Source of the DNA: Streptomyces sp. NBC_01255 | GTDB taxonomy: Bacteria > Actinomycetota > Actinomycetes > Streptomycetales > Streptomycetaceae | DNA: 64,000 bases | Assembly: GCF_036226445.1 (NCBI RefSeq) | Contig: NZ_CP108474.1 | Location: 5,518,001-5,582,000 of the forward strand | Direction: 5' to 3' | In this document: one piece after another, positions 1 to 13,058 of the stretch | How the letters are laid out: the number at the start of each line of letters is the position of its first letter | How positions within the stretch are numbered: the first letter of the stretch is position 1 | Notes under the pieces: generated by a model | Told to the model about the DNA's origin: nothing | Seen by the model: the letters and a program-made list of their open reading frames with translations, nothing else | Database searches by the model: none | Translations under genes and position numbers: made by a program

Positions 1-180
1 GGGCGAGGCCGGGCTGGCCTCCCAGCGGGTGAGCGCGACCCCGGGGCGGCCCCCGGCGGCCGAGGCGAGCCAGGCCGCACCGTCGGCGGTCACGTGGGCG
101 GTCTGGTGCCGCCCCTCGTCGCCCTCCCGCAGGAAACGGAAGATGTCGTACGGGGTCTCGTCGCGCAACCAGGTCGTCAT
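1..180 (-). CDS. Hypothetical protein, N-terminal 60 residues only (gene runs off the window)
   Basis: Reading leftwards from an ATG at 178-180, the frame stays open for 60 codons to the window edge. The visible start MTTWLRDETPYDIFRFLREG is charged and soluble-looking, with no signal peptide or membrane segment, and has the GC-biased third positions of a real Streptomyces gene. The rest lies outside the window, so no family can be assigned. It has the same orientation as the next gene (312-668) but is separated from it by about 130 bp. Confidence 0.55.
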   Translation of the reverse strand, partial: MTTWLRDETPYDIFRFLREGDEGRHQTAHVTADGAAWLASAAGGRPGVALTRWEASPASP

Positions 181-311
181 ACGACCAGATCTACCGGCCG
201 TGACGACCCGGTTTCCGAGAGTTGCCGGAATCTCGGACAAGAGGGGTGGCCGAGGAGTATCGTGCGCCCCGCATATGCCACGGGACGCCCCCGTCCGGCC
301 TACTCCGGCGC

Positions 312-668
312 CTACTCCTCCGGCGGGCGCCCGTTCGCCCGGATCAGATCGCGGCCGAACTCGATCATCTTCAGGGCGTAGTCCTCGGTCCACTCCGCCC
401 GCTCGGCGACGTCCGCCGCCGTCAGCCGGTCGAACCGGCGCGGGTCCGCCAGCTGCGCCGCCGCGATCGCCTGGAACTCCGTCGCGCGGTCCGTCGCCGC
501 GCGGAACGCGAGCGTCAGCTCCGTCGCCCGGGCCAGCAGCTCGCGCGGGTCCTCTATCGACTCCAGGTCGAAGAAGTGCTCCGGATCGGCGGTCGCCTCG
601 GCAGGCTCGAAGACCAACGGTGCCGGCCGAAGCCGTCGCTGTCCGCTCCGCTCCGCGGGTTCCGCCAT
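312..668 (-). CDS. Conserved hypothetical protein, 118 aa
   Basis: Small soluble acidic protein beginning MAEPAERSGQRRLRPAPL. The start is fixed by a very strong ribosome-binding site, AGGAGGAGAAG, directly upstream of the ATG at 666-668. After a Pro/Arg-rich first 20 residues comes a mainly helical region, with AERAEWTEDYALKMIEFGRDL near the end. No catalytic motif or membrane segment is visible. It follows the nuclease/helicase cassette on the same strand after about 120 bp containing an 18-bp perfect palindrome (695-712), so it is probably a separate transcription unit. Function unknown. Confidence 0.75.
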   Translation of the reverse strand: MAEPAERSGQRRLRPAPLVFEPAEATADPEHFFDLESIEDPRELLARATELTLAFRAATDRATEFQAIAAAQLADPRRFDRLTAADVAERAEWTEDYALKMIEFGRDLIRANGRPPEE

Positions 669-694
669 CGTTCTTCTCCTCCTCGCACAGGCAC

Positions 695-712
695 GGCCCG
701 GGATCCCGGGCC
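695..712 (-). terminator. 18-bp perfect palindrome downstream of the helicase gene
   Basis: A fully self-complementary sequence with 9-bp arms (GGCCCGGGA and its complement) lies between the helicase stop (788) and the start of the 118-aa gene (668). In RNA it could fold as a terminator for the cassette. As DNA it sits about 27 bp upstream of the next start codon and could instead be an operator. The sequence cannot separate these two options. Confidence 0.4.
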
Positions 713-787
713 GCTTTCCATTGTCCCGCGCCGCGCAAGAGCGCAAGGCCCCGGCCGCGCGCCCCGACTCCGCTCCAGGACCCTGGT

Positions 788-2140
788 TTAGACGGTGGCG
801 GGGTCCCACACCACCCGGTGTTCCGCCAGGTGGGAGAGGACCGCGTGGTTCGCCTCCCAGCCGTCGGGGAAGGACACCGCCGCGCCGAGCCGTACCGGCT
901 CCGTCGACGGGTGCTCGTCGAGGAGCTCCGTGACGCCCGCGCGGCACACCACGACGCAGGCGTGCCGGTGCCGGGAGGCCAGCACGCACAGGCGGCCCGT
1001 CTCCAGGTGGAACGCGGTCGCGTCCGGGCGCCCGGACAGCGGATGGAGGACGACCGTGACGTCGTACTCGCGCCCCTGGAGCCGGTTCGCGGTGTCCACC
1101 GTCACGCCCGTCACCCCGAGACCCGCGAGTGCCGCCCGGACCGCCGCCGCCTGGTCGCGGTGGGCGGTGCCGACCGCGACCCGGTCGGGCGTCAGGGGCA
1201 CGGGGTGTTCGGCCTGCTCCGAGACCGCGGCGCCGCCCCGGTCCAGGAGCCGCCGGACGACGAGGGCGACCGCGCCGACCGCCTCGGGGTCGGTGCGCGG
1301 GGTGGTGCGGGCCGGCAGTTCGAGCAGCCCCCAGCCCGACTCCGCCGCCTCGTCGAGGACCCGGTCGGGACCCGAACCGTCCGACGCCACGCCGAAGGAG
1401 AGCTTCCGGTCCCCGGGCCCGGTGCCGCTGCGGAACGGCGTGAACGGGTAGAAGGCGTCCGACACCAGCGGCGCCGCCGAGGCGGGCAGCCGCCAGGAGA
1501 CCGGCAGCCGGTGCTGCGGAAGCTCCGGATTGTGCGCGAGCAGGGTGGAGACGGCCGAGCCGGACGGGTCGTACGAGAGGCCCGCCCACTGCTCCGCGCC
1601 CACCACCGAGAACGGGTCGAGCTGCCCGGGGTCGCCCACGAACAGCGCCCGCTCGAAGAGCCCCGCCACGGCGAGCAGCGCGTCGGAGCGCATCTGGTAC
1701 GCCTCGTCGACGATCGCGTGCGCCCACGGCTCGACGTTCTTCACGTGCGCCCACTTGGCGGAGGTCGAGAGGACGACCGGCAGCCCCGCCAGCTCTCCGG
1801 GCTTCGCCGACTTCCGTACGTTGGCCAGGTCGTCGAGCGCCTTGTCGTACGGGTCGCTGTCGTTCGAGTGCAGCCGGCCCACCTCCAGGCCGGGCTCCTT
1901 CTCGGCGAGCCGCAGCACCAGGTCGTCCACCTGCGCGTTCGTCTGCGCGACGACCATCAGGGGGCGCCCGGCGGCGGCCAGTTCGAGCGCCGCCCGGACC
2001 ACCAGGGTCGACTTCCCGGCCCCCGGAGGCGAGTCCACGACGACACCCCGGGAGGTGCCGTGCAGGGTGTCGGCGAGGATGCCGTCCGTCGCCCGCCCGG
2101 CCTCGGCGGACGGATCGAAACGAGGTTCAACGGTCGTCAC
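788..2140 (-). CDS. Superfamily 1 DNA/RNA helicase-like ATPase, third gene of the nuclease-helicase cassette
   Basis: 450-residue protein with SF1 helicase motifs in order: Walker A SPPGAGKST (about residues 37-45), motif Ia VVAQTNAQVDDLV, Walker B HAIVDEAYQM (DEAY 145-148), motif III FVGDPGQLDPF (168-177), motif V VDTANRLQGREYD and motif VI LASRHRHACVVV. This resembles the compact AAA/Upf1-type SF1 core with no accessory domains. The start is the GTG at 2138-2140, which overlaps the upstream stop as GTGA and implies translational coupling. It probably supplies the motor for the nuclease encoded two genes upstream. A role in repair, recombination or defence is inference; the helicase fold itself is clear. 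Confidence 0.88.
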   Translation of the reverse strand: MTTVEPRFDPSAEAGRATDGILADTLHGTSRGVVVDSPPGAGKSTLVVRAALELAAAGRPLMVVAQTNAQVDDLVLRLAEKEPGLEVGRLHSNDSDPYDKALDDLANVRKSAKPGELAGLPVVLSTSAKWAHVKNVEPWAHAIVDEAYQMRSDALLAVAGLFERALFVGDPGQLDPFSVVGAEQWAGLSYDPSGSAVSTLLAHNPELPQHRLPVSWRLPASAAPLVSDAFYPFTPFRSGTGPGDRKLSFGVASDGSGPDRVLDEAAESGWGLLELPARTTPRTDPEAVGAVALVVRRLLDRGGAAVSEQAEHPVPLTPDRVAVGTAHRDQAAAVRAALAGLGVTGVTVDTANRLQGREYDVTVVLHPLSGRPDATAFHLETGRLCVLASRHRHACVVVCRAGVTELLDEHPSTEPVRLGAAVSFPDGWEANHAVLSHLAEHRVVWDPATV

Positions 2141-3729
2141 AGCACGTCCTCGGGGGTCACGGCGTCGGGCAGTTCGGGGAGGTCGGCCCGGCGCGGCGGT
2201 CCGCCGTGCGTCCAGGGCGTCTCCTCCGGGTCCGGCAGCTTCGGCCCGACCCGCTGCTCGTGCTCGAACAGCGTCCAGGCGATCCGCTCGCCCTTCTCCG
2301 GCACCGAGCCCTCCGCCGGCTCCTTCGACCGCCCCATCTTGTCCAGGAGCCGCAGCACCAGCGAGCCGTCCTCCTCGTGCCGCACGAACTCCGCAGCCTG
2401 CGGCTTCCCGTCGAGCGAGCGGAACACCTTCGCCTTCTCCGCGAGGTGCGGCCGGTCCTCCGTGCGGACCGTGAGCAGCGGGCGCGGCGCGGGCCGCTTC
2501 GACTCCGTCCACGCCATCGTCACCTCGACCACCTCCGCCACGAACGCCTCGCCCGCGAGCCGTCGCCCCGCCAGGACCAGCGGATCGTCGAGCGCCTCGT
2601 GCGCCTCCAGCTGACCCTGTGCCTGCTCGCGGGCCGCGAGCTTCGAGGCCGCCCCCACGGCGTCGTCCCGGCGCGGCTGCGGCGGCTCGCCGGCCGCGAT
2701 CCGGTCCCGGTGGCCGGTGAACGACCAGCGGTCGCGGGTCCAGCGGTCCTCGACCCTGGCGCCCTCCGGCAGCTCCCGCAGCAGGTCCAGCGCCTGCCAG
2801 ACGAGGTCCCAGGTCGGCTTCAGCTGCGAGGCGACGAGCCGCCGGATCTCCCGCTCGGCCCGGTGCAGCTCGCCGAGGCCCGTGTCGGCCGCCTCGCCGT
2901 CCTCGGCCGCGCCGAGCGCCTGCCGGGCCCGGTCGTACCGCTCGATCGCGGGCGCCAGGAGCCGGTTGTCGAAGGCCGGGTCGGTGGCGGGCCCGGCGGG
3001 CGGGCACAGCAGCTGCCCCCGCGCGTCCCGGCCGGCCTCGGCCCGCAGCGCCCCCTCGGGCCCCGACTCCCCGTCCCGCGGGTCGATCCAGGCGAGCAGC
3101 GCACCCAGGTGCTGGTCCTCCAGGGAGGACTGGCCGGTCGCCCAGTGCCGGTTGAGCAGGTCGGTCGCGGCAAGCAGCAGCGAGGAGCCGGGCACCCGCG
3201 CCCGCTCGCCGAAGTGCGTCAGCCACCGCCCGAGCAGCGGTACACGCGGCGGCGCCGGGAACGGCGTCTCCGGGTCCTGCTCGGCCGTCCGCCGGAACCG
3301 CGTCGACCGCCCGAGCAGCCGTACGTACTCGATGCCCGCCCGGCTCGGCACGATCAGCTGCGGCGCGTCCGCGCACAGCTCGACCTCGACCTTCACCTTC
3401 TTGCCGGTCTCGGGGTCGACCTCGCTCCGCTCCGCCGCTTCGACGACGTCCGTGAACGAGTCGACGTACGGCAGGACCTCCTCCGCCAGATCGGCGAGGA
3501 ACGCGAAGCGCAGGTCCCGGTCCCGGGGCTGCGCCACCACCAGGAGCCGGGGCTCGTCGCGGTCGGTGCCGACGAGCGCGCCGAGCGGCGCCCCCGCCTC
3601 ACCGGCCGTCGTCAGCGGTACGAGGACGAGCGGCCGCGCGGACACGTGCCGGTGGCGGACGGTGGCCAGCGGCTGGGCACGGCCCGACTCGACGGCCTCC
3701 ATCCGGGCGAGCGCGGAGATCAGCGACAT
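2137..3729 (-). CDS. Uncharacterised 530-aa protein, middle gene of the nuclease-helicase cassette
   Basis: Soluble protein starting [21 protein letters not shown], with no signal peptide, transmembrane span or catalytic motif I recognise. The N-terminal half is mixed, and a charged helical segment follows (about residues 255-330). A region near residues 390-470 looks like a beta-rich fold (LVLAGRRLAGEAFVAEVVEV and LLTVRTEDRPHLAEKAKVF). It overlaps the nuclease stop by 10 bp upstream and the helicase start by 4 bp downstream, so all three are probably made from one mRNA in related amounts. That coupling suggests a shared complex, perhaps with this protein as scaffold or DNA-recognition subunit. 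Confidence 0.85.
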   Translation of the reverse strand: MSLISALARMEAVESGRAQPLATVRHRHVSARPLVLVPLTTAGEAGAPLGALVGTDRDEPRLLVVAQPRDRDLRFAFLADLAEEVLPYVDSFTDVVEAAERSEVDPETGKKVKVEVELCADAPQLIVPSRAGIEYVRLLGRSTRFRRTAEQDPETPFPAPPRVPLLGRWLTHFGERARVPGSSLLLAATDLLNRHWATGQSSLEDQHLGALLAWIDPRDGESGPEGALRAEAGRDARGQLLCPPAGPATDPAFDNRLLAPAIERYDRARQALGAAEDGEAADTGLGELHRAEREIRRLVASQLKPTWDLVWQALDLLRELPEGARVEDRWTRDRWSFTGHRDRIAAGEPPQPRRDDAVGAASKLAAREQAQGQLEAHEALDDPLVLAGRRLAGEAFVAEVVEVTMAWTESKRPAPRPLLTVRTEDRPHLAEKAKVFRSLDGKPQAAEFVRHEEDGSLVLRLLDKMGRSKEPAEGSVPEKGERIAWTLFEHEQRVGPKLPDPEETPWTHGGPPRRADLPELPDAVTPEDVL

Positions 3730-4898
3730 GCGGGGTCCTCCTCGGACAGCGAGGACGCGAAGTCCGGGGCCTTCACGCCCGGCGCCGACGCCCGGTCCAG
3801 CGCCTCCTGGCGCAGCGCCCGCGCCCGGCGCAGGGCCGCCACCGCCGGATCGTCCGGGTCACCGGCCTCCCCGCGCGCCGCCGCCAGGACCGCGCCGACC
3901 GTCGTGAGGCCGCCCAGCTCACCCCGTACCGCACGGCCCAGGGTCTCCACCGCGCCCGCTTCCCGGGCCCGCGCCCGGCAGTGGAAGGCCAGCTCGCAGG
4001 CGGCCAGGCACTCCGGCGCGTACGCGTGGGGCACGGACTCCACGGCCTCCGTCAGCTCCGCCGGCGAGCACCCCTCCACATCGAAGGTGGTGCCCTCCGG
4101 CAGGGCGTCCGCGATCTCCTCGATCCGGGTCAGCCGGGCCAGCTGCCGCCGGGTCACCGACCGCTGCTTGCGCACGTCCACGACGGAGGCCGTCGGCACG
4201 TTCGAGAAGTCCTTCGGGCAGACGAGGAGCACCGAGTGCGCGACCCGCGCGCCCTCGGTCACCGCCGCCATCCGTTCGAGCGCGAGCACGTACACGGCGG
4301 ACTGCCGGGCCGCCGCGCCCACCTTCGACGCGTCGGCCGCGCCGTCGATCATCGGGAAGGACTTGATCTCGACGACCGTCCACCGCCCGTCGGGATCGAC
4401 CACCACCGCGTCCGGCTCCAGATAGACCGGGGAGCCGGCCACCTCCAGGGCGAGCAGCGGATGGTCGAGCAGCGCCCATGTCCCCGCCCCGGTCGCCTCC
4501 CGCAGCGCGAGCGCCGTGCGGGCCGTCCGCCCCTGGGGTCCGGCCGCGGCCAGATCGGGCACGGAGACCGCGCCGGGCTCCTCGACGCCGAGCAGGCGCA
4601 GCAGCTCACGGCCGCCGTCCGCCTTGACCTTCGCCTCGAAGGAGTTGCCCCGCATGATCGCGAACTGCGACTGGCCGAAGGGCGCGGGGGAGCCCAGCTT
4701 CGACGCGAGCGCCGCCTTGTCGACCCCGGCGCCGTCGAGCAGTGCCCGCCGTCGGCAGCCCGGATTGGCGGCGAGCGCGGCGAGCGCCCGCGCGTCCAGA
4801 GCGCGCGGCGGCGTGCCCGGTCCGCGCAGCTCGGCCAGAGCCTGTCGGAGTGTCGTCTGCGCGGGTCGGGGCAGTCCGGTGTCCAGGGATGCGCTCAC
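3720..4898 (-). CDS. PD-(D/E)XK nuclease of the RecB/Cas4/AddB type with a probable Fe-S cluster
   Basis: 392 residues from the GTG at 4896-4898. Nuclease motifs: RGNSFEAKV (84-91), the Asp of YLEPDAVVV (D163), the E-x-K of VVEIKSF (E177, K179) and QSAVY (Q199-Y203), the Q-x3-Y motif of RecB-family nucleases. C48 in [10 protein letters not shown] precedes the nuclease core, and C297, C301 and C307 follow it, spaced C-x3-C-x5-C. AddB and Cas4 use one early plus three late cysteines to hold a 4Fe-4S cluster, so the arrangement points to a Fe-S nuclease. First gene of the cassette. In-frame GTGs at 4919 and 4922 are alternative starts; none has a convincing ribosome-binding site. Confidence 0.85.
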
Positions 4899-5022
4899 CC
4901 GCGGAAGTCTCGCATCCACCACTGACAACCGTCCGGAGGTCGCCCGGACGTCACCCCGAATTCGCGTGGGCGATGATGGGAGAGGCACGTCCGCACACCG
5001 TGAACCAATGGAGAGCCTTCCC

Positions 5023-5616
5023 ATGGCACCGCGCATCCTGCTCGCCCGGCACGGCCAGACCGAGTGGTCACTTCTCGGCCGGCACACCGGCAGGACCGAC
5101 ATCCCCCTGCTCGACGAGGGCCGGCGCGGCGCGAAGCTGCTCGGCGAGCGGCTCCACCGCGGCCCCTGGCAGGGACTGCCCGACGTGGAGGTGCGCACCA
5201 GCCCGCTGGTCCGCGCGAGCGAGACCTGCGCCCTCGCCGGCTTCGGCGACCGCGCCGAGCCGTGGGACGCGCTGATGGAGTGGGACTACGGGGCGTACGA
5301 GGGAATGACCCCGGCCCAGATCCAGGCGATCCGCCCCGGCTGGCTGATCTGGCGCGACGGCGTCCCGGAAGGCGAATCGCTCGCACAGCTCTCGGACCGG
5401 GCCGACGAGATCGTGGAGTGGGCCCGCTCCGCCGACCGTGACGTGCTGGTCTTCGCCCACGGCCACATCCTGCGCTCGATCGGCGCACGCTGGCTCGGCG
5501 AGGACGTCTCGTTCGCGTCCCGCATCCGCCTCGACCCGACGAGCCTCTCGGTCCTGGGCTGGGCGTACGGCGCACCGGCGATCGAGCGCTGGAACGACAC
5601 CGGGCACCTGGAGTAG
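5023..5616 (+). CDS. Histidine phosphatase (phosphoglycerate mutase-like) family protein
   Basis: 197-residue single-domain protein of the histidine phosphatase superfamily. The catalytic RHG signature is at the start ([12 protein letters not shown]), the second catalytic His is in [12 protein letters not shown], and the usual Arg and Glu are in [12 protein letters not shown] and [10 protein letters not shown]. The ATG at 5023 is preferred because GGAGAG lies 8 nt upstream; an in-frame ATG at 5008 overlaps that site. Physiological substrate is unknown; relatives include alpha-ribazole, phosphosugar and fructose-bisphosphate phosphatases. It diverges from the nuclease cassette across about 124 bp and converges on the TPR regulator. 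Confidence 0.9.
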
Positions 5617-5640
5617 GCGCCCCGGCGGTCGGTACGCGAG

Positions 5641-6927
5641 TCAGTACGCGGCGAGGACCCGGCTCGTCTCGGCGAGCATCCCGCGGATCCGGGCCGAGGC
5701 GATGCCGTCGAGGGAGTCCATGACGCGCTTCGCCTCCGCCGCCGCCTCGTCCGGGCGCCCGGCGTGCGCCAGGTCCTTGGCCAGGTGGGCGCGGTAGAGC
5801 GCGAGGTTCCGGGCGAAGTACGGATTCTGCAGGACCGTCGCCCGGTGGGCGTGGCGGGCGGCACGCCCCCAGTCGCCGAGGGCCGCCCAGCACTGGGCCT
5901 CCAGGGCCTCCCGCTCCGGCTCGCCGAAGAACGACATCCACTCGGGGTCGCCGTCGGAGGGCCCCCGCTCGAAGTGCCCGTGGGCGCGGCCGAGGGCCTG
6001 CTCGCAGGCGGACCGGTCGCCGAGCCCCGCCCACGCCGCCGCCTCCCGCAGCGACAGCAGCGACAGCAGCCGGGCCGAGTCGAGGGGCTGCGCGGCCCGC
6101 AGCCCCGCCTGGGCCGCCCGGACCGCCTCGCGGTACCGGCCGGTGTCCCGGGCCAGGAACGACGTGTTGCAGAAGGCGTGCGCCTCCAGGGCCGCGTTCC
6201 CGGAGAACCGCGCGGTGGCGAGGGCCTCGGCGTAGTGCGAGCGCGCGTCCTCGTGGCGGCCCGAGTCATGGGCGAGCCAGCCGACGGAGAGGGACAGCTC
6301 GCCGGCGCCCGCGTGCAGCCGGTCCTCGGTGGAGCGACGGGTCATGGTTCCCGTGTCGAGCAGCGCGTACGCGGTACGGAGCGGCTGCGCGGCCACCTTG
6401 TAGAGCCCGTCGGCGCCGTGCCGGTCGTCGAGCAGACGGATCTGCCGTACGGCCTCCTCGACGGCCCGGACCTCGGTCTCGCCGATCCTGTGACTGCCGC
6501 GGGGGGCTGGGATCGCGACGGCGGGGCCGCCGAGTCCCAGCGAGGCGGCCGCCAGGGTGGCGGAGCCGCTCGTCATGAATGCGCGACGCAGCACGTCGCT
6601 CTCCTCATCGTTCCGGGTCGAGATCGCGACGGGAGGCGGAGCCCCGGCCGCGACCGGCTGCCGCCGGCCACGTACCGTCTCCCGCGCGGAGAAGCCCAGG
6701 TCGGAGAGGCCGAGTCCGGGGAACATGTGCAGGAAGACCCGCTCGTACGCGTAGTTGGGGCAGCGGATCTCGCCCGCTTCCACGCGCCCGATGTAGCGGG
6801 CGTCGCACGCGACCTGTTCGCCGATCTCCCGCGCCGCCCGGCGGACAGCCGCGGCGAACTCCGCCGGCGAGTGCTGTCCGCGGAGCCGGCGGAAGGCGAG
6901 GTTGGGAACTGCCCGTGACATCGCCAT
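5641..6927 (-). CDS. HTH/TPR transcriptional regulator
   Basis: 428 residues. The N-terminal 70 form an XRE/Cro-like helix-turn-helix unit (EFAAAVRRAAREIGEQVACD, then YIGRVEAGEIRCPNYAYERV). A short hydrophobic stretch follows, then a long helical C-terminal half with TPR-like repeats (GWLAHDSGRHEDARSHYAEA and AQCWAALGDWGRAARHAHRA). This plan is common in Streptomyces regulators of development and antibiotic production, including NsdA-type proteins. The ATG at 6927 follows AGGAGAGGG. A gene for a 148-aa protein diverges from it across about 224 bp, so the two probably share control elements. Target genes cannot be read from sequence. Confidence 0.82.
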   Translation of the reverse strand: MAMSRAVPNLAFRRLRGQHSPAEFAAAVRRAAREIGEQVACDARYIGRVEAGEIRCPNYAYERVFLHMFPGLGLSDLGFSARETVRGRRQPVAAGAPPPVAISTRNDEESDVLRRAFMTSGSATLAAASLGLGGPAVAIPAPRGSHRIGETEVRAVEEAVRQIRLLDDRHGADGLYKVAAQPLRTAYALLDTGTMTRRSTEDRLHAGAGELSLSVGWLAHDSGRHEDARSHYAEALATARFSGNAALEAHAFCNTSFLARDTGRYREAVRAAQAGLRAAQPLDSARLLSLLSLREAAAWAGLGDRSACEQALGRAHGHFERGPSDGDPEWMSFFGEPEREALEAQCWAALGDWGRAARHAHRATVLQNPYFARNLALYRAHLAKDLAHAGRPDEAAAEAKRVMDSLDGIASARIRGMLAETSRVLAAY

Positions 6928-7151
6928 GGCCGAGCCCTCTCCTGGTGCTGCCGGGTGGTCCGGCGGCAAGAACGTACCTGCTGTGACCGGATGCGTACGC
7001 TGAGTTTGGCTACAAATCGGATATCTCGCCTGCGATCTGCCATGAACTGCCATCCTTTGCAGCGGCATGGCGCCGTAGCCGTTGACGCGCACGGGCGTTG
7101 AACCGTAAGGGAGAGACGGAACGTGTCTCCTCTGGAGCGAGGAGGCGTCCC

Positions 7152-7598
7152 ATGTCGGAGATCGGTTCGCAGTCGGCCACGTGGCACGCGCCCGCCCCGG
7201 ACGCCGGCACCACCCCCCAGCCCCCCGCGGAGCCCTGGGACCTGGTGACCGTGCCGGTCCGGCAGGGCCTGGAGGCCGTCGACATCCTGCGCCGCGGCAG
7301 CACCCCCGCGGTCGGCCCGGTCGTGCACGACGGGGCCTGCGACACCCTCGGCTTCCTGGTTCCGCCGGGCACGGCCGCCGCCTGGGACATGCCGGGCAGC
7401 GCGTGTACGCGGACCTCGGGGCGCGGCCTCCGCCTCCCCGAGCTGCCGGAGCTCCCCGAACCGACGGGCGACACCCCCCGCCCCGCCGGCTGGCTGCTGC
7501 CGCCGAAGGACACCGGCCCCGTCACCGACCCGGCCGTCCTGCGCGAGGCGCTCGGCGAGGCGGCCCGCCTGATCGAGGCGGCCGACGGCTGCCACTGA
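7152..7598 (+). CDS. Uncharacterised 148-aa protein divergent from the TPR regulator
   Basis: Small soluble protein (MSEIGSQSATWHAPAPDAGT) with an ideal GGAGG site 6 nt before its ATG. The middle contains VGPVVHDGACDTLGFLVPPG followed by WDMPGSACT, and the C-terminus is helical (AVLREALGEAARLIEAADGC). It has Pro-rich linkers and no membrane segment. I recognise the general look of a widespread Streptomyces protein adjacent to HTH regulators but cannot name a family. Its divergent arrangement with the HTH/TPR regulator suggests that it is either that regulator's target or its partner. Confidence 0.75.
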   Translation: MSEIGSQSATWHAPAPDAGTTPQPPAEPWDLVTVPVRQGLEAVDILRRGSTPAVGPVVHDGACDTLGFLVPPGTAAAWDMPGSACTRTSGRGLRLPELPELPEPTGDTPRPAGWLLPPKDTGPVTDPAVLREALGEAARLIEAADGCH

Positions 7599-7634
7599 GC
7601 CACTGGGCGGTGCCCACCCGGGCGTGCCCGGATA

Positions 7635-8510
7635 ATGGGGCCCGTGGCCAGGAACAAACAGCGCGACCGGGCGGCGTCCGCCGCCTCCGTCGTCGAGACC
7701 GTCGACGGCGGGCTCGCCGAACTCATACCCGACCGGGAGCGCCCGCGCGCCTGGACGCTGCTCATCGACGGCGCCCCGCAGTCGCACGTCGACCTCGACG
7801 ACCCGGCCCACCTCTCCTTCGAGTACCAGCGGCGCCTCGGCCACATCGCCGACCTCGCCGCCCCGCCGAACCGGCCGCTCCAGGTCGTGCACCTCGGCGG
7901 CGGCGCCTTCACCCTCGCCCGGTACGTCGCCGCGACCCGGCCCCGCTCCACCCAGCAGATCGTCGAACTCGACGGACAGCTGGTCCAGCTCGTCCGCCGT
8001 GAACTGCCGCTCGACCCCGGGGCCCGTATCCGCGTCCGTTCCACCGACGCCCGCGCCGGACTCGCCAAGGTGCAGGACGGCTGGGCGGACCTCGTCATCG
8101 CCGACGTGTTCAGCGGTGCCCGCACCCCGGCCCATCTGACCAGCACCGAGTTCCTCGGCGAGGTGCGGCGGGTCCTGCGGCCCGGCGGCTTCTACGCGGC
8201 GAACCTCGCCGACGGCCCGCCCCTGACCCACCTCCGCGGCCAGATCGCCACGGCCGCCGCCGTCTTCCCCGAACTGGCGCTGACCGCCGACCCCACGGTG
8301 CTGCGCGGCCGCCGCTTCGGCAACGCCGTACTGCTCGCCTCCGACCGCGAGCTGCCGGTGGCCGAGCTGACCCGCCGGGTCGCCACCGATCCGCACCCGG
8401 GCCGGGTGGAGCACGGACGGGAGCTCGCCGACTTCGCCGGCGGCGCGGCCCCGGTCACCGACGCGAGCGCCAAGCCCTCGCCCGTACCGCCCGCGTCCGT
8501 CTTCCGCTGA
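7635..8510 (+). CDS. Spermidine synthase-like / class I methyltransferase-fold protein
   Basis: About 290 residues. A Rossmann methyltransferase core is visible: the nucleotide-binding loop [18 protein letters not shown], the acidic end of strand 2 ([13 protein letters not shown]), [22 protein letters not shown] and [17 protein letters not shown]. This matches the polyamine synthase (SpeE-like) superfamily, as found in stand-alone actinobacterial members that often lack proven spermidine synthase activity. The start could be the ATG at 7635 or the GTG at 7644 (giving MARNKQRDR); neither has a strong ribosome-binding site. It lies 36 bp after the 148-aa gene and converges on the next gene. Confidence 0.82.
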
Positions 8511-8525
8511 GACCGCTGAGGCCTC

Positions 8526-9131
8526 TCAGGCCGCGCGGTCCTCGATCTCCACGCGGGGCGCGCTGTCGTGCCACAGGCAGAAGACCGAGAGTTCACGGCC
8601 GTCCTTGGTGAAGGTGACCCGGATCCAGGTCGGCTGCTTCCACACCTGCATCTGCCAGCCCGACGCGGGCGTCGCCGAGACCAGTTCGGCCGACGTCTCG
8701 CCGAGATCGAAGGTGACCCGGCCGCCGTCGACCGGGTAGCTCTTCACCGAGGACGCGGTGGTGGGCGCGGGGCTCGTGGCGGGTGCGGCCGTGGTGGTGG
8801 GGGGCGTCGCCGGCGTGGACTCCGGGCCGTCGGAGGGCGGCGAAGCGGGTGTCGACGGCGGGGCGGCGGACGTCGTGCGGTCCTCGCTCGGCGTGGGCTT
8901 GCGGGACGGCGGCGAGGTCGCCGGGGGCTCGGCCCTTTGCGTCGAGGAGGCCAGCGGATCGCTGCCGGACGTGCCCGGTGCGACCTCGGTGGCACCGACC
9001 GGGAGCGGCAGCGCGCGCGGAGGGTCGTAGACCGTGCCGGACAGCACCGTGTGCACTCCCCACCAGGACAGGGTGACCGCCGCGCCGGTGGCGAGCGACC
9101 AGGCCAGGGCGTGAACGAGTCCTCTTCGCAC
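8526..9131 (-). CDS. Membrane-anchored protein with a long Pro/Ser/Thr-rich linker
   Basis: 201 residues from a GTG at 9129-9131. One N-terminal transmembrane segment (LVHALAWSLATGAAVTLSWW) is followed by a low-complexity extracytoplasmic linker of roughly 90 Pro, Ser, Thr and Ala residues. A compact C-terminal beta-rich domain ends the protein (VTFDLGETSAELVSATPASG, then WIRVTFTKDGRELSVFCLWH). The architecture suggests a domain displayed at the outer face of the membrane within the cell wall. It diverges from the response-regulator gene at 9219 across less than 90 bp, so it may be a target or ligand partner of that two-component system. No enzymatic motif is visible. A GTG at 9146 is an alternative start. 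Confidence 0.78.
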   Translation of the reverse strand: MRRGLVHALAWSLATGAAVTLSWWGVHTVLSGTVYDPPRALPLPVGATEVAPGTSGSDPLASSTQRAEPPATSPPSRKPTPSEDRTTSAAPPSTPASPPSDGPESTPATPPTTTAAPATSPAPTTASSVKSYPVDGGRVTFDLGETSAELVSATPASGWQMQVWKQPTWIRVTFTKDGRELSVFCLWHDSAPRVEIEDRAA

Positions 9132-9218
9132 CGGCCCATAGTGCACCACCCTGTGAGGGGGAGTACCGGAGGGTACGGATTGCTCGCCCGTTCCCCCGAA
9201 TGGCGTACGGTGCGGCCC

Positions 9219-9920
9219 ATGGCAAGTGTGCTCGTGGTCGAGGACGACCAGTTCGTGCGCTCCGCCCTCATCCGCCAGCTCTCCGAGGCCTCCCACACGG
9301 TACGGAGCGTCGGGACGGCTCTGGAGGCGTTGCGCGAGGTCGCCCATTTCCGTTTCGACGTGGTCATCCTCGACCTCGGACTGCCCGACCTGGACGGGTC
9401 CGAGGCGCTCAAGATGCTGCGCGGGATCACCGACGTACCGGTGATCATCGCGACCGCCCGGGACGACGAGGCCGAGATCGTCCGGCTCCTGCACGCCGGC
9501 GCCGACGACTACCTCGTGAAGCCCTTCTCGGTGGACCACCTTTCGGCCCGCATGGCCGCCGTCCTGCGCCGGGCGCGGTCCGCCGCCGGCGAGGCGCCCC
9601 CGCCCCGGGTCATCCGGGTCGGCGGCCTCACCGTCGATCCGCTGCGCCGTCAGGCGGAGCTCGACGGGGCGCCGTTGGACCTCACCCGGCGCGAGTTCGA
9701 CCTGCTGGCCTTCCTCGCCGGGCGGCCCGGCGTGGTCGTCCCGCGCAAGGAACTGCTCGCCGAGGTGTGGCAGCAGTCCTACGGGGACGACCAGACCATC
9801 GACGTACATTTGTCATGGCTGCGGCGGAAATTGGGTGAAACGGCCGCGCGGCCCCGCTACTTGCACACCCTGCGCGGGGTGGGCGTGAAGCTGGAGCCGC
9901 CCCGGGAGCCGCAGCCGTGA
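9219..9920 (+). CDS. OmpR/PhoB-family response regulator
   Basis: 233 residues. The receiver domain has the acidic pair VVEDD near residues 6-10, the phosphoacceptor D52 in VVILDLGLPD, T79 in VIIATARDD and the conserved Lys of DDYLVKPF (K101). The C-terminal winged helix includes DLTRREFDLLAFLAGRPG and IDVHLSWLRRKLGE. It is translated in a GTGA overlap with the histidine kinase gene, the usual signature of a cognate pair. OmpR-type regulators often bind direct repeats with 11-bp period; such a repeat sits before the GH18 gene downstream of the kinase (11386-11407). Regulatory targets remain inference. Confidence 0.93.
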   Translation: MASVLVVEDDQFVRSALIRQLSEASHTVRSVGTALEALREVAHFRFDVVILDLGLPDLDGSEALKMLRGITDVPVIIATARDDEAEIVRLLHAGADDYLVKPFSVDHLSARMAAVLRRARSAAGEAPPPRVIRVGGLTVDPLRRQAELDGAPLDLTRREFDLLAFLAGRPGVVVPRKELLAEVWQQSYGDDQTIDVHLSWLRRKLGETAARPRYLHTLRGVGVKLEPPREPQP

Positions 9921-11329
9921 GGTGGGCGCTCGTCAAGGTGTCACTGGCCGTCACCGTCATGGTCGTCGTCGCCTTCGCCGTACCCCTCGGGCTCGTCGTC
10001 AAGGAGATGGCCCGCGACCGGGCCTTCTCCAACGCCGAACGGCGGGCCGCCGGGCTCGCCCCCGTCCTCGCGATCACCACCGACCGCGAGGAGCTGGACA
10101 AGGCCGTCGCCACCACCGAGGACGGGGCCGCCGGACGGCTCGCCGTCCACGTGCCCGCCGCGGAGCCGGGCGGGACCGCGCTGGAGATCGGCACCCGCAG
10201 GGCCGACGCCGAGGAACTCGCCGCCACCCGCCGGCTCGGCCGGGCCTCCATCGCCGAGGTGCCGGGCGGCTACGCGCTGCTCCAGCCCACCGCGATCAGC
10301 AGCGGTCAGGTCGCCGTCGTCGAACTCTTCGTCCCCGAGGGCGAGGTCACCAACGGCGTCGCCACCGCCTGGCTCGTCCTCGCGGGGGTCGGCATCGCCC
10401 TGATCGTCGGCTCCGTCGCCGTCGCCGACCGGCTCGGCGTCCGCATGGTCCGGCCCGCCCAGCGACTCGCGGGCGCCGCCCACGACCTCGGCGAGGGCAG
10501 GCTCGGCGCGCGGGTGCCCGAGGAGGGCCCGCCGGAGCTCAAGTCGGCGGCGGTCGCCTTCAACTCGATGGCCGACCAGGTCGTCCAGCTCCTCGCCAAC
10601 GAACGCGAGCTCGCCGCCGACCTCTCCCACCGGCTCCGCACCCCGCTGACGGTGCTGCGGCTCAACACGGCCTCGCTCGGCTCGGGACCCGCCGCCGAGC
10701 AGACCCGGGCCGCCGTCGAACAGCTGGAGCGCGAGGTCGACATCATCATCCGTACGGCCCGGGAGGCGAAGCCGCAGACCCAGGCGACCGGACCCGGCGC
10801 CGGCTGCGACGCCGCCGAGGTGGTCCGCGCGCGGATGGACTTCTGGTCGGCGCTCGCGGAGGACGAGGGCCGGCGGGTACGGGTCGCGGGCGTCGAGCGT
10901 CCGGTACGCATCCCGGTGGCCCGCCCCGAACTCGTCGCCGCCCTCGACGCCCTGCTCGGCAACGTCTTCCGGCACACCCCCGAGGGCACCGCCTTCTCCA
11001 TCGACGTCCACAACGGCGACGACGCCGTCATCGTCCTGGTCTCCGACGCGGGCGCCGGCATCGCCGACCCCGCCGCCGCCCTGGCCCGCGGCAACAGCGG
11101 AGGCAGGCCCGGGTCGACGGGCCTCGGCCTGGACATCGTGCGGCGGATGGCGGAGGCCACCGGGGGAGACGTCGCCATCGGGCACTCCGTCCTCGGCGGC
11201 ACCGAGGTCCGCGTCTGGATCGGGCTCGACGGGCGCCGCTCGGGCACCACGACGGGCCGCCGCGGCCACCGCCCGGCCCGCCGCCGCCGCGGTGGCGGCA
11301 CGGGCACCCGGCGCGCCGCAGACGCCTGA
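9917..11329 (+). CDS. Sensor histidine kinase, partner of the preceding response regulator
   Basis: 470 residues. TM1 is about 5-28 and TM2 about 151-171, flanking an extracytoplasmic sensor of about 120 residues. HAMP (VRPAQRLAGAAHDLGEGRLG) and the HisKA dimerisation domain follow, with phosphoacceptor H238 in LAADLSHRLRTPL. The ATPase domain has the N box (ALLGNVFRHTPEG), G1 (VSDAGAGIADP) and G2 (GSTGLGLDIVRRMAEA). The C-terminal tail of about 45 residues is extremely Arg/Gly-rich and lies outside the catalytic core. It starts with GTG overlapping the regulator stop. The signal sensed is unknown. Confidence 0.93.
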   Translation: MRWALVKVSLAVTVMVVVAFAVPLGLVVKEMARDRAFSNAERRAAGLAPVLAITTDREELDKAVATTEDGAAGRLAVHVPAAEPGGTALEIGTRRADAEELAATRRLGRASIAEVPGGYALLQPTAISSGQVAVVELFVPEGEVTNGVATAWLVLAGVGIALIVGSVAVADRLGVRMVRPAQRLAGAAHDLGEGRLGARVPEEGPPELKSAAVAFNSMADQVVQLLANERELAADLSHRLRTPLTVLRLNTASLGSGPAAEQTRAAVEQLEREVDIIIRTAREAKPQTQATGPGAGCDAAEVVRARMDFWSALAEDEGRRVRVAGVERPVRIPVARPELVAALDALLGNVFRHTPEGTAFSIDVHNGDDAVIVLVSDAGAGIADPAAALARGNSGGRPGSTGLGLDIVRRMAEATGGDVAIGHSVLGGTEVRVWIGLDGRRSGTTTGRRGHRPARRRRGGGTGTRRAADA

Positions 11330-11385
11330 ATCCTCCCGACGCCCGAGCCCCGTCGGGGCCGAACCTTTCGTGGTTCCGATGCCTT

Positions 11386-11407
11386 CCTTAAGCGGACCCT
11401 AAGAATC
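11386..11407 (+). promoter_or_regulatory. 11-bp-period direct repeat upstream of the GH18 gene
   Basis: CCTTAAGCGGA at 11386-11396 is followed immediately by CCCTAAGAATC at 11397-11407, so the CYTAAG half-sites sit exactly one helical turn apart. This geometry is typical of OmpR-family regulators. It lies 107-128 bp before the GH18 start codon and just downstream of the histidine kinase gene. A link to the neighbouring response regulator is inference. Confidence 0.5.
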
Positions 11408-11513
11408 CCAACCCCGGGCCGATCGCGGTCATTTGTCCGTTTCCCAGTCGCTAGCGTGCTGCCGCACCCCACCCTCACAACCCCACACCCCGGCACACAG
11501 AGGCAGGCACCCG

Positions 11514-13058
11514 ATGGGCACCAGTTCGCACCGGCGCAGGGCGAGCGCCAGGACCAAGGTCGTCGGAGCGGTCGTCGCGGCGGCGATCGCCGGCGGCGCC
11601 GCCTTCGCGCTCGGCGGGACCGCGCAGGCCGCCGCCGTCGGCGCCGCGTACACCCGGACCAGCGCCTGGACCGGCGGCTACACCGGCCAGTACGTCGTCA
11701 CCAACGAGACGGCCACCGCCCAGTCCGACTGGACCCTGGAGTTCGACCTCCCGGCCGGGACGACCATCGGCTCCCTCTGGAACGGCGAGCACACCGTCTC
11801 CGGCGGCCACGTCACCGTGAAGCCCGCGAGCTGGAACAAGCAGCTCGGCCCCGGCCAGTCCGTCACCGTCGGCTTCGTGACCGCCGCCGCGGGCGTGGCC
11901 GGCGACCCGACCGGCTGCCTCATCAACAAGGCCGCCTGCTCCGCCGGAGGCCCCGCCCCCACCCCCAGCGGCCGCCCCACCGACCAGCCGACCGCGACCG
12001 CCTCCCCGAAGCCGACGGCCACGGCCACGGCCACGGCGACGGCCACCGCCACGGCCACCGCGTCCCCCAAGCCGACGGCCACCGCCACCGCCACGGCGAC
12101 CCCCACGGCCACGGTGAAGCCCACCCCGACCCCCACGGCGACGGGTGGCCCCGCCCCTGAGCCCACGGCCGCCAAGTACGCCCCGTACGTCGACACCTCG
12201 CTCTACCCGACGTACGACCTGCTCGCGACCGCCGACGCCACCGGCGTGAAGGAGTTCAACCTCGCCTTCATCACCTCCGGCGGCTCCTGCGCCCCGCTCT
12301 GGGGCGGGGTCACCGACCTCGCGAACGACAAGGTCGCGGCCCAGATCGGCGCCCTGCGCGCCAAGGGCGGTGACGTCCGCGTCTCCTTCGGCGGCGCCGC
12401 CGGCCACGAGCTGGCCCTGAACTGCTCGTCGTCCTCGGCGCTCGCCGCCGCGTACGGCAAGGTCATCGACCAGTACAAGCTGACCAAGGTCGACTTCGAC
12501 GTCGAGGGCGCGGCCCTGCCGGACACGGCCGCCAACACCCGCCGGTCCCAGGCGATCGCCCAGCTCCAGCAGACCCACCCGGGCCTGAACGTCTCCTTCA
12601 CCCTGCCGGTCATGCCCGAGGGCCTGACGCAGCCGGGCGTGGCCCTGCTCGCCGACGCGAAGAAGAACGGCGTGCACGTCGACGCCGTCAACATCATGGC
12701 GATGGACTACGGCCCGGCGTACAGCGCGGACATGGGCACGTACGCGATCCAGGCCGCGACCGCGACCCAGGCCCAGGTCAAGGGCGTCCTCGGGCTCTCC
12801 GACGCGGCCGCCTGGAAGGCTGTCGCCGTCACCCCGATGATCGGCGTCAACGACGTCACCACCGAGATCTTCCGGGTCGACGACGCCACGCAGCTCGTCG
12901 ACTTCGCGAAGTCGAAGGGGCTCGGCTGGCTCTCGATGTGGTCCTCGACCCGTGACAAGCAGTGCGCGGCCGGCGCCGTGAACTACGCCGACGCCACCTG
13001 CTCCTCGATCCTCCAGCAGCCTCTGGCCTTCACGAAGGCCTTCGCCGCCTACAAGTAG
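11514..13058 (+). CDS. Secreted GH18-family glycosidase (chitinase or endo-N-acetylglucosaminidase type) with N-terminal CBM2-like module
   Basis: 514 residues. A secretory signal (RTKVVGAVVAAAIAGGAAFA, then ALGGTAQAAA) ends near residue 39. A CBM2-like domain follows (about 40-140: TSAWTGGYTGQYVVTNETAT, then WTLEFDLPAG), then a Thr/Ala/Pro linker of about 65 residues with long TA repeats, and a GH18 barrel (about 218-514). The barrel carries the D-x-D-x-E signature as VDFDVEG (D327, D329, E331), whose Glu is the expected acid/base. This barrel subgroup includes single-domain Streptomyces chitinases. The ATG at 11514 is preferred because it starts the signal peptide; its upstream site (AGAGGCAGG) is moderate. 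Target polymer is inferred to be chitin-like. Confidence 0.88.
   Translation: MGTSSHRRRASARTKVVGAVVAAAIAGGAAFALGGTAQAAAVGAAYTRTSAWTGGYTGQYVVTNETATAQSDWTLEFDLPAGTTIGSLWNGEHTVSGGHVTVKPASWNKQLGPGQSVTVGFVTAAAGVAGDPTGCLINKAACSAGGPAPTPSGRPTDQPTATASPKPTATATATATATATATASPKPTATATATATPTATVKPTPTPTATGGPAPEPTAAKYAPYVDTSLYPTYDLLATADATGVKEFNLAFITSGGSCAPLWGGVTDLANDKVAAQIGALRAKGGDVRVSFGGAAGHELALNCSSSSALAAAYGKVIDQYKLTKVDFDVEGAALPDTAANTRRSQAIAQLQQTHPGLNVSFTLPVMPEGLTQPGVALLADAKKNGVHVDAVNIMAMDYGPAYSADMGTYAIQAATATQAQVKGVLGLSDAAAWKAVAVTPMIGVNDVTTEIFRVDDATQLVDFAKSKGLGWLSMWSSTRDKQCAAGAVNYADATCSSILQQPLAFTKAFAAYK

Follow-up and report, generated by a model that had tools for sequence, protein, structure and literature searches.

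Several described enzymes couple a nuclease to a helicase motor of superfamily 1 (SF1). Eukaryotic DNA2 does so in a single chain holding a nuclease fold and an SF1B core, with a barrel located before the helicase core and, to our knowledge, no RNase H-like domain. AddAB and AdnAB combine a RecB-like nuclease with an SF1 motor for DNA-end resection; their motors are of the SF1A UvrD type, and the nuclease is carried on the motor chains. Fused proteins of the TIGR03491 (TM0106) family hold RecB-like nuclease, RNase H-like and SF1 helicase domains in one chain, usually of 1100-1300 amino acids (aa). Bad of Geobacillus stearothermophilus is reported to be a monomeric single-chain bacterial DNA2-like helicase-nuclease, in which a central domain of unexplained function accompanies an iron-sulphur (Fe-S) nuclease and a helicase moving 5'->3' (PMC7430649). 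Here we describe three genes, nuc, mid and hel, in a 64,000-nucleotide stretch of Streptomyces sp. NBC_01255 (contig NZ_CP108474.1, positions 5,518,001 to 5,582,000; hereafter the window). We propose, with a probability of roughly 0.75, that these genes specify the pieces of a single DNA2-like helicase-nuclease complex, arranged in the order found in DNA2; that the three products belong to one shared complex is well supported.

The trio resembles Bad in its four-cysteine nuclease of predicted Fe-S type, its SF1B helicase, the presence of a conserved central portion (in Bad of unexplained function) and the order of these parts, but it is spread over three genes and its helicase would be cut between domains 1B and 1A. 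It likewise keeps the order of the nuclease fold and SF1B core of DNA2 and, if the predicted RNase H-like fold of mid is counted, of the three domains of the TIGR03491 protein, both of which are single chains, whereas nuc, mid and hel are three separate open reading frames (ORFs) and a joint nuclease-helicase chain was not found here. The split form would be a variant of a published DNA2-like kind, single-chain Bad having already been described. The first-pass annotation had likened the set to AddAB or to defence modules. AddAB is not the nearest model: the best matches of hel are Upf1-like and the nuclease is a separate ORF, so that no UvrD/AddA-type motor with a nuclease on its chain is present; defence genes were found beside accessory copies and not beside the core copies compared below. 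Its statement that it knew of no described system with this layout agrees with our searches, in which no named system fitted the whole set and the literature, limited to open-licence PMC papers, yielded neither the split trio nor its link to Wadjet. PLuB, a lead from NCBIfam, was dropped when no relevant paper was found.

All three genes lie on the minus strand, and their overlapping ends, already read from the sequence, were confirmed at 10 bp (nuc/mid) and 4 bp (mid/hel). For comparison we assembled a core Streptomyces set of 80 loci, kept from 116 confirmed ones, with 73-96% identity in mid. Gene ends overlap in 54/77 of these loci for nuc/mid and in 64/80 for mid/hel, counts that are biased towards the window's layout because the start codons nearest to its own were chosen. 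Kept across related Streptomyces loci, the overlaps are not a product of chance.

The nuc product is predicted to be an Fe-S-type (iron-staple, Cas4/AddB/DNA2-like) PD-(D/E)XK nuclease, having both the RecB-family motifs and the four spanning cysteines that characterise iron-staple enzymes. This class had been assigned before; the fold and the conserved cysteines support it, and all the residues then named (C48, D163, E177, K179, Q199, Y203, C297, C301 and C307) stand at their positions. In structure comparisons nuc resembles the Cas4, Exo5 and AddAB nucleases and aligns with DNA2 residues 20-411 (structure 5eaw); the fold comparisons effectively covered nuc 16-316 and mid 31-489, and families beyond those compared may match as well. 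Across 24 diverged nuc rows C48, D163, C297, C301 and C307 never vary, with E177 and K179 kept in at least 90%, and all four cysteines are also invariant in an alignment of 69 rows, which upholds the cysteine conservation that had been put forward as a check. Among the core Streptomyces loci, D163, E177, K179, Q199, Y203 and C297/C301/C307 are intact in 77/77 and C48 in 76/77, the remaining one being a gap, probably that of L034, whose contig begins inside the nuc gene. Family models see little of this, with a PDDEXK_1 match below threshold in Pfam, no NCBIfam family beyond noise, no match to the TIGR03491 model at E<=1 and none in PADLOC at E<=1. Two low E-values of nuc against Protein Data Bank (PDB) sequences were discarded as repeats of designed proteins with no fold match.

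The middle protein had been called devoid of any recognisable domain. At the sequence level this stands: the best Pfam match has E 0.098, none was found in NCBIfam or PADLOC at E<=1, and none among PDB sequences at E<=10. It does not stand for the predicted fold. The AlphaFold2 model of mid is confident (pLDDT, the predicted local distance difference test, 89.4; pTM, the predicted template-modelling score, 0.86) and resembles, in its first part, an exonuclease domain of RNase H-like fold and, after it, the stalk and 1B beta-barrel known from Upf1-like helicases, a barrel that hel is missing. The RNase H-like domain lacks the conserved DxE on its first strand and is, on the model, probably an inactive pseudo-exonuclease; it was recognised by fold similarity, with no significant family or profile match. 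The C-terminus of mid aligns with IGHMBP2 4-159, N-terminal of the IGHMBP2 motor core, whose first motif stretch is 198-265. When mid and nuc profiles were run against 20 fused TIGR03491 proteins, the best stretches were collinear and not significant.

The remaining part of the helicase would be supplied by hel, an SF1B (Upf1-like) core of domains 1A and 2A (Pfam AAA_11, 2.6e-11; AAA_12, 2.2e-6), so that the earlier reading as a compact SF1 helicase was sound. Against PDB sequences its profile matches IGHMBP2 (2.8e-13) and, in the single stretch 643-983, DNA2 (3.3e-13). An alignment of 23 hel rows shows no variation at the lysine of Walker A, at the motif II residues DE or in GDPGQL, SWRLP, QGR and SR. 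NCBIfam and PADLOC gave partial helicase matches only. Assignment to Mokosh, Gabija or Hhe defence was considered and rejected, as short helicase stretches match MkoC, MkoA, GajB and Hhe while nuc and mid match none at E<=1. Upf1-like helicases are often RNA helicases, the barrel of mid matches Sen1, SETX and IGHMBP2, and hel also matches UPF1/NAM7, all of which would suit an RNA-processing complex. We consider such a role very improbable, given the likeness of nuc to RecB/Cas4-type DNA nucleases, the one long stretch over which hel matches DNA2, and the SbcCD genes that adjoin accessory copies. Coordinates are collected in Table 1.

Table 1. Genes and sequence features of the trio (window coordinates).
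Feature	Position	Strand	Description or basis
nuc	3720..4898	-	392 aa, GTG start (predicted start)
mid	2137..3729	-	530 aa
hel	788..2140	-	450 aa, GTG start
nuc C48 codon, first predicted cluster cysteine	4755..4757	-	conservation in alignments
nuc C297-x3-C301-x5-C307 codons, other three predicted cluster cysteines	3978..4010	-	conservation in alignments
nuc active site D163...E177-x-K179	4362..4412	-	conservation; intact in 77/77 core Streptomyces loci
mid residues 31-378	2596..3639	-	like 3'-5' exonuclease (DEDD, RNase H-like) domain of family B DNA polymerases
mid residues 392-489	2263..2556	-	beta-barrel like helicase domain 1B of Sen1/SETX/IGHMBP2
hel Walker A SPPGAGKST	2006..2032	-	sequence and conservation

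The three genes travel together. In a class-wide sample of 394 genomes, where scoring was restricted to the 3-4 top first-look candidates of each genome, mid was found in 71 genomes, nuc in 70 and hel in 70 (E<=1e-30), and the same 70 genomes hold all three, in keeping with the expectation that the genes are linked and not independent; the extra mid genome (G217) is a weak match of E 1.8e-4. The order nuc-mid-hel is kept in 47/48 loci (L111-L158), and at L208:5931-9086 mid and hel form one open frame, the only joining of two parts among the loci checked for fusions, none of which has nuc fused to mid or hel. It could be argued that these are three separate enzymes that are merely co-transcribed, for the genes are separate and hel lies 36-50 kb distant in one genus, that of the exceptional locus L125, which is without hel. 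Strict co-occurrence, the gene overlaps, the single mid-hel frame and the presence of the 1B-like barrel on mid make this improbable.

A further point concerns the fused relatives. TIGR03491 is strong (E<1e-15) in 137/394 class genomes, over the cut-off in 134; all 20 examples fetched are frames of more than 1000 aa with a Walker A, 16/20 have a C-x2-C-x5-C cluster and 19/20 share a further cysteine column, and the three scanned each carry RNase_H_2 and AAA_12. In Actinomycetes this fused form is perhaps the second, mycobacterial DNA2-like class of PMC7430649. Both forms occur in 3 genomes (G031, G249 and G308), the trio only in 67 and the fused form only in 134, with the marginal TIGR03491 matches (E >1e-4) of four trio-bearing Streptomyces not counted; the source genome has no match to the TIGR03491 model. 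Within family f17 the counts are 12 trio only, 18 fused only and 0 both, and within f18 they are 14, 16 and 1. Class-wide the exclusion reaches p 8e-11 by genome and is not significant by genus (p 0.26). The pattern is suggestive, and the trio may stand in for the fused enzyme.

Our preference for one split DNA2-like enzyme therefore draws on the folds and sequences of the parts, their collinearity with DNA2 and IGHMBP2, the mid-hel frame of L208, co-occurrence and kept order, together with the invariant motor residues and cysteines, the rarity of the fused TIGR03491 form in the same genome, and the SbcD of accessory loci. In such an enzyme nuc would be the Fe-S nuclease, mid would provide the RNase H-like domain followed by the helicase stalk and 1B barrel, and hel would provide the 1A/2A motor core, so that mid and hel would have to pair for a complete SF1B helicase. 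If the complex works as Bad and DNA2 do, its motor may load on a free 5' single strand and move 5'->3', and nuc may cut the threaded strand at ends or flaps. What the data establish are the domains, through sequence and predicted fold, and their order, linkage and conservation; complex formation, polarity, cutting and cellular role are what we infer from these.

The trio is nearly universal in the family, mid being present in 119/121 Streptomycetaceae genomes and the trio in 39/40 Streptomyces of the class sample. In G234, a 5.8 Mb Streptomyces genome listed as 100% complete, the trio was not found in mid, nuc or hel searches. The source genome (8.57 Mb) has one copy of mid. In public records the nuc and mid proteins are mostly named hypothetical.

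Some Streptomycetaceae carry an additional, diverged trio (8 were read), and a search with a fourth gene, cc, extended these to 30 accessory loci. The cc gene lies directly before nuc in 30/30 of them, a figure that is partly by choice because 20/30 were found by the cc search; in the 10 found via mid (8 second copies, 2 plasmids) cc is present in 10/10 and SbcD in 6/10. The cc product is 265-324 aa long (11 aligned rows) and gives only sub-threshold coiled-coil-type or UVR matches in Pfam. Matches to cc occur in 22/266 Streptomyces genomes, and of 24 near-full places (20 fetched, 3 already in hand, the second end of G608 left out) all 20 further ones fetched have the whole trio. Elsewhere cc precedes the trio in 12/32 other loci and in 0/13 of those from other Streptomycetaceae genera. 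Two plasmid matches, H2 (no annotation) and H4 (40% of the query), were left out of the 30 loci, and some loci are not independent: the trio and cc of L132/L133 are nearly alike (HmaA beside L132 only), L191/L192 and L195-L197 are close relatives, and L210/L211 are two ends of one chromosome. No phage-borne mid copy was present in the phage collection searched.

SbcD stands divergent to cc-nuc-mid-hel in 18/30 accessory loci, with SbcC alongside in 17. The profiles for both were built from five loci chosen by size and place, one pair being confirmed in Pfam; among PDB sequences, two SbcD proteins (L212, L198) match Mre11/SbcD and two SbcC proteins (L198, L136) match Rad50/SbcC. One plasmid record names the pair SbcCD subunit D and SMC family ATPase, and on another plasmid SbcC/SbcD is in pieces. 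Wadjet genes lie nearby in 10/18 SbcD-bearing loci and, in the stretch read, in 0/12 without SbcD; their PADLOC types are 1, 2 (JetB2 only) and 3 (JetC3 only), and a full JetABCD set follows hel on two plasmids. SbcCD (Mre11-Rad50) and Wadjet are separate known complexes, adjacent in many accessory loci and not at the window locus. In the hel tree (71 rows) the Streptomycetaceae core copies are grouped (25 rows, support 91/90), as are the SbcCD type (19 rows, 90/97; SbcCD missing from one) and the SbcCD-less type (10 rows, 99/99), with L138 and L213 apart on long branches.

Using a crude neighbour-gene caller, we compared the surroundings of 7/8 accessory and 7/80 core loci. Among the 47 accessory neighbours, at least 9 genes (HmaA, HmaB, PprPDDEXK, JetA1, JetC3, Orf5 and three HA-domain helicases, for which the match may be general) account for matches to 62 PADLOC families at 1e-20; the 81 core neighbours match none. 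As to a Cas4 of CRISPR adaptation, no cas gene appeared among those 81 at E<=1e-20, a limit that a small Cas2 could escape. Directly after hel in L134, L135 and L136, all of SbcCD type, is an HA-domain helicase, with a Pfam match for the L134 one.

The accessory copies that adjoin HmaA/HmaB, Wadjet (PADLOC types 1-3) or Orf5-like genes raise the question of whether the core trio, too, is a built-in defence directed at the DNA of phages or plasmids. We regard this as unlikely in view of the near-universal presence of mid, a shared neighbour gene at the site in 74/80 Streptomyces loci, the absence of PADLOC matches at 1e-20 among 81 neighbours of 7 core copies, and the lack of cc, SbcCD and Jet homologues at 80/80 core loci within stretches of 3-17.7 kb. 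The source genome has no cc by single-sequence search, nor by profile, where it is one of the 244/266 Streptomyces genomes without a match, and an SbcD of this genome lies elsewhere, at 7.38 Mb. The window copy has no cc, SbcCD or Wadjet neighbours and is probably the housekeeping form of the split DNA2-like enzyme. The first-pass annotation had suggested a DNA-end-processing, repair or defence complex; end processing is probably right, while the window copy lies outside any defence island as judged by those core neighbours. The core copy may serve repair or act on replication flaps beside AdnAB, which is reported as the main Streptomyces helicase-nuclease (PMC5869714).

The accessory relatives, consisting of the trio with cc and often SbcCD, are probably DNA-end degraders in defence. 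Wadjet is reported to cut circular and not linear DNA (PMC10586767), so an end-directed SbcCD and split-DNA2 module would be a fitting partner for it. We tentatively suggest, at less than even odds, that SbcC, SbcD, cc, nuc, mid and hel form a six-gene DNA-end-destroying defence module, a bacterial counterpart of the Mre11-Rad50 and DNA2 resection pair, which is repeatedly coupled to Wadjet and would destroy its linear products and other linear invaders. The window trio would then be a domesticated housekeeping form, and the nuclease of the sister subtype may only scaffold the motor. In 9/30 accessory loci, all without SbcD, the nuc active site is altered: seven have L and R in place of E177 and K179, and two have Q and R in place of D163 and K179. 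The four cysteines are kept in 30/30. Among the altered loci (L132, L133 and L201-L207), HmaA adjoins L132 and L207, and weak SNF2-type HmaA matches lie near L202, L203 and L206.

The SbcCD-type module lies within about 25 kb of a contig end in 3/7 single-contig cc genomes (G574, and G534 and G608 at both ends); it is also near a contig end in G348 and, on a linear plasmid, some 12 kb from the terminus (loci L194, L210, L211, L212, L134 and L192). This may reflect subtelomeric exchange or a role at ends. A 118-aa ORF at window 312-668 (minus strand) is present near the trio in 74/80 core Streptomyces loci and has no match in Pfam, NCBIfam or PADLOC. It was rejected as a fourth subunit on account of its variable distance, its opposite strand in two loci and its lack of a family. 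An Rfam scan of window 1-12000 gave nothing at the gathering score.

Reading the trio as one split DNA2-like enzyme gives a concrete, testable function to three genes of almost every Streptomyces sampled. A helicase halved between 1B barrel and motor core, with the parts on two genes, would be unusual and offers a route to DNA2-type regulation. That a split DNA2 is linked to Mre11-Rad50 and Wadjet suggests that a bacterial resection-like pair has been assembled for defence.

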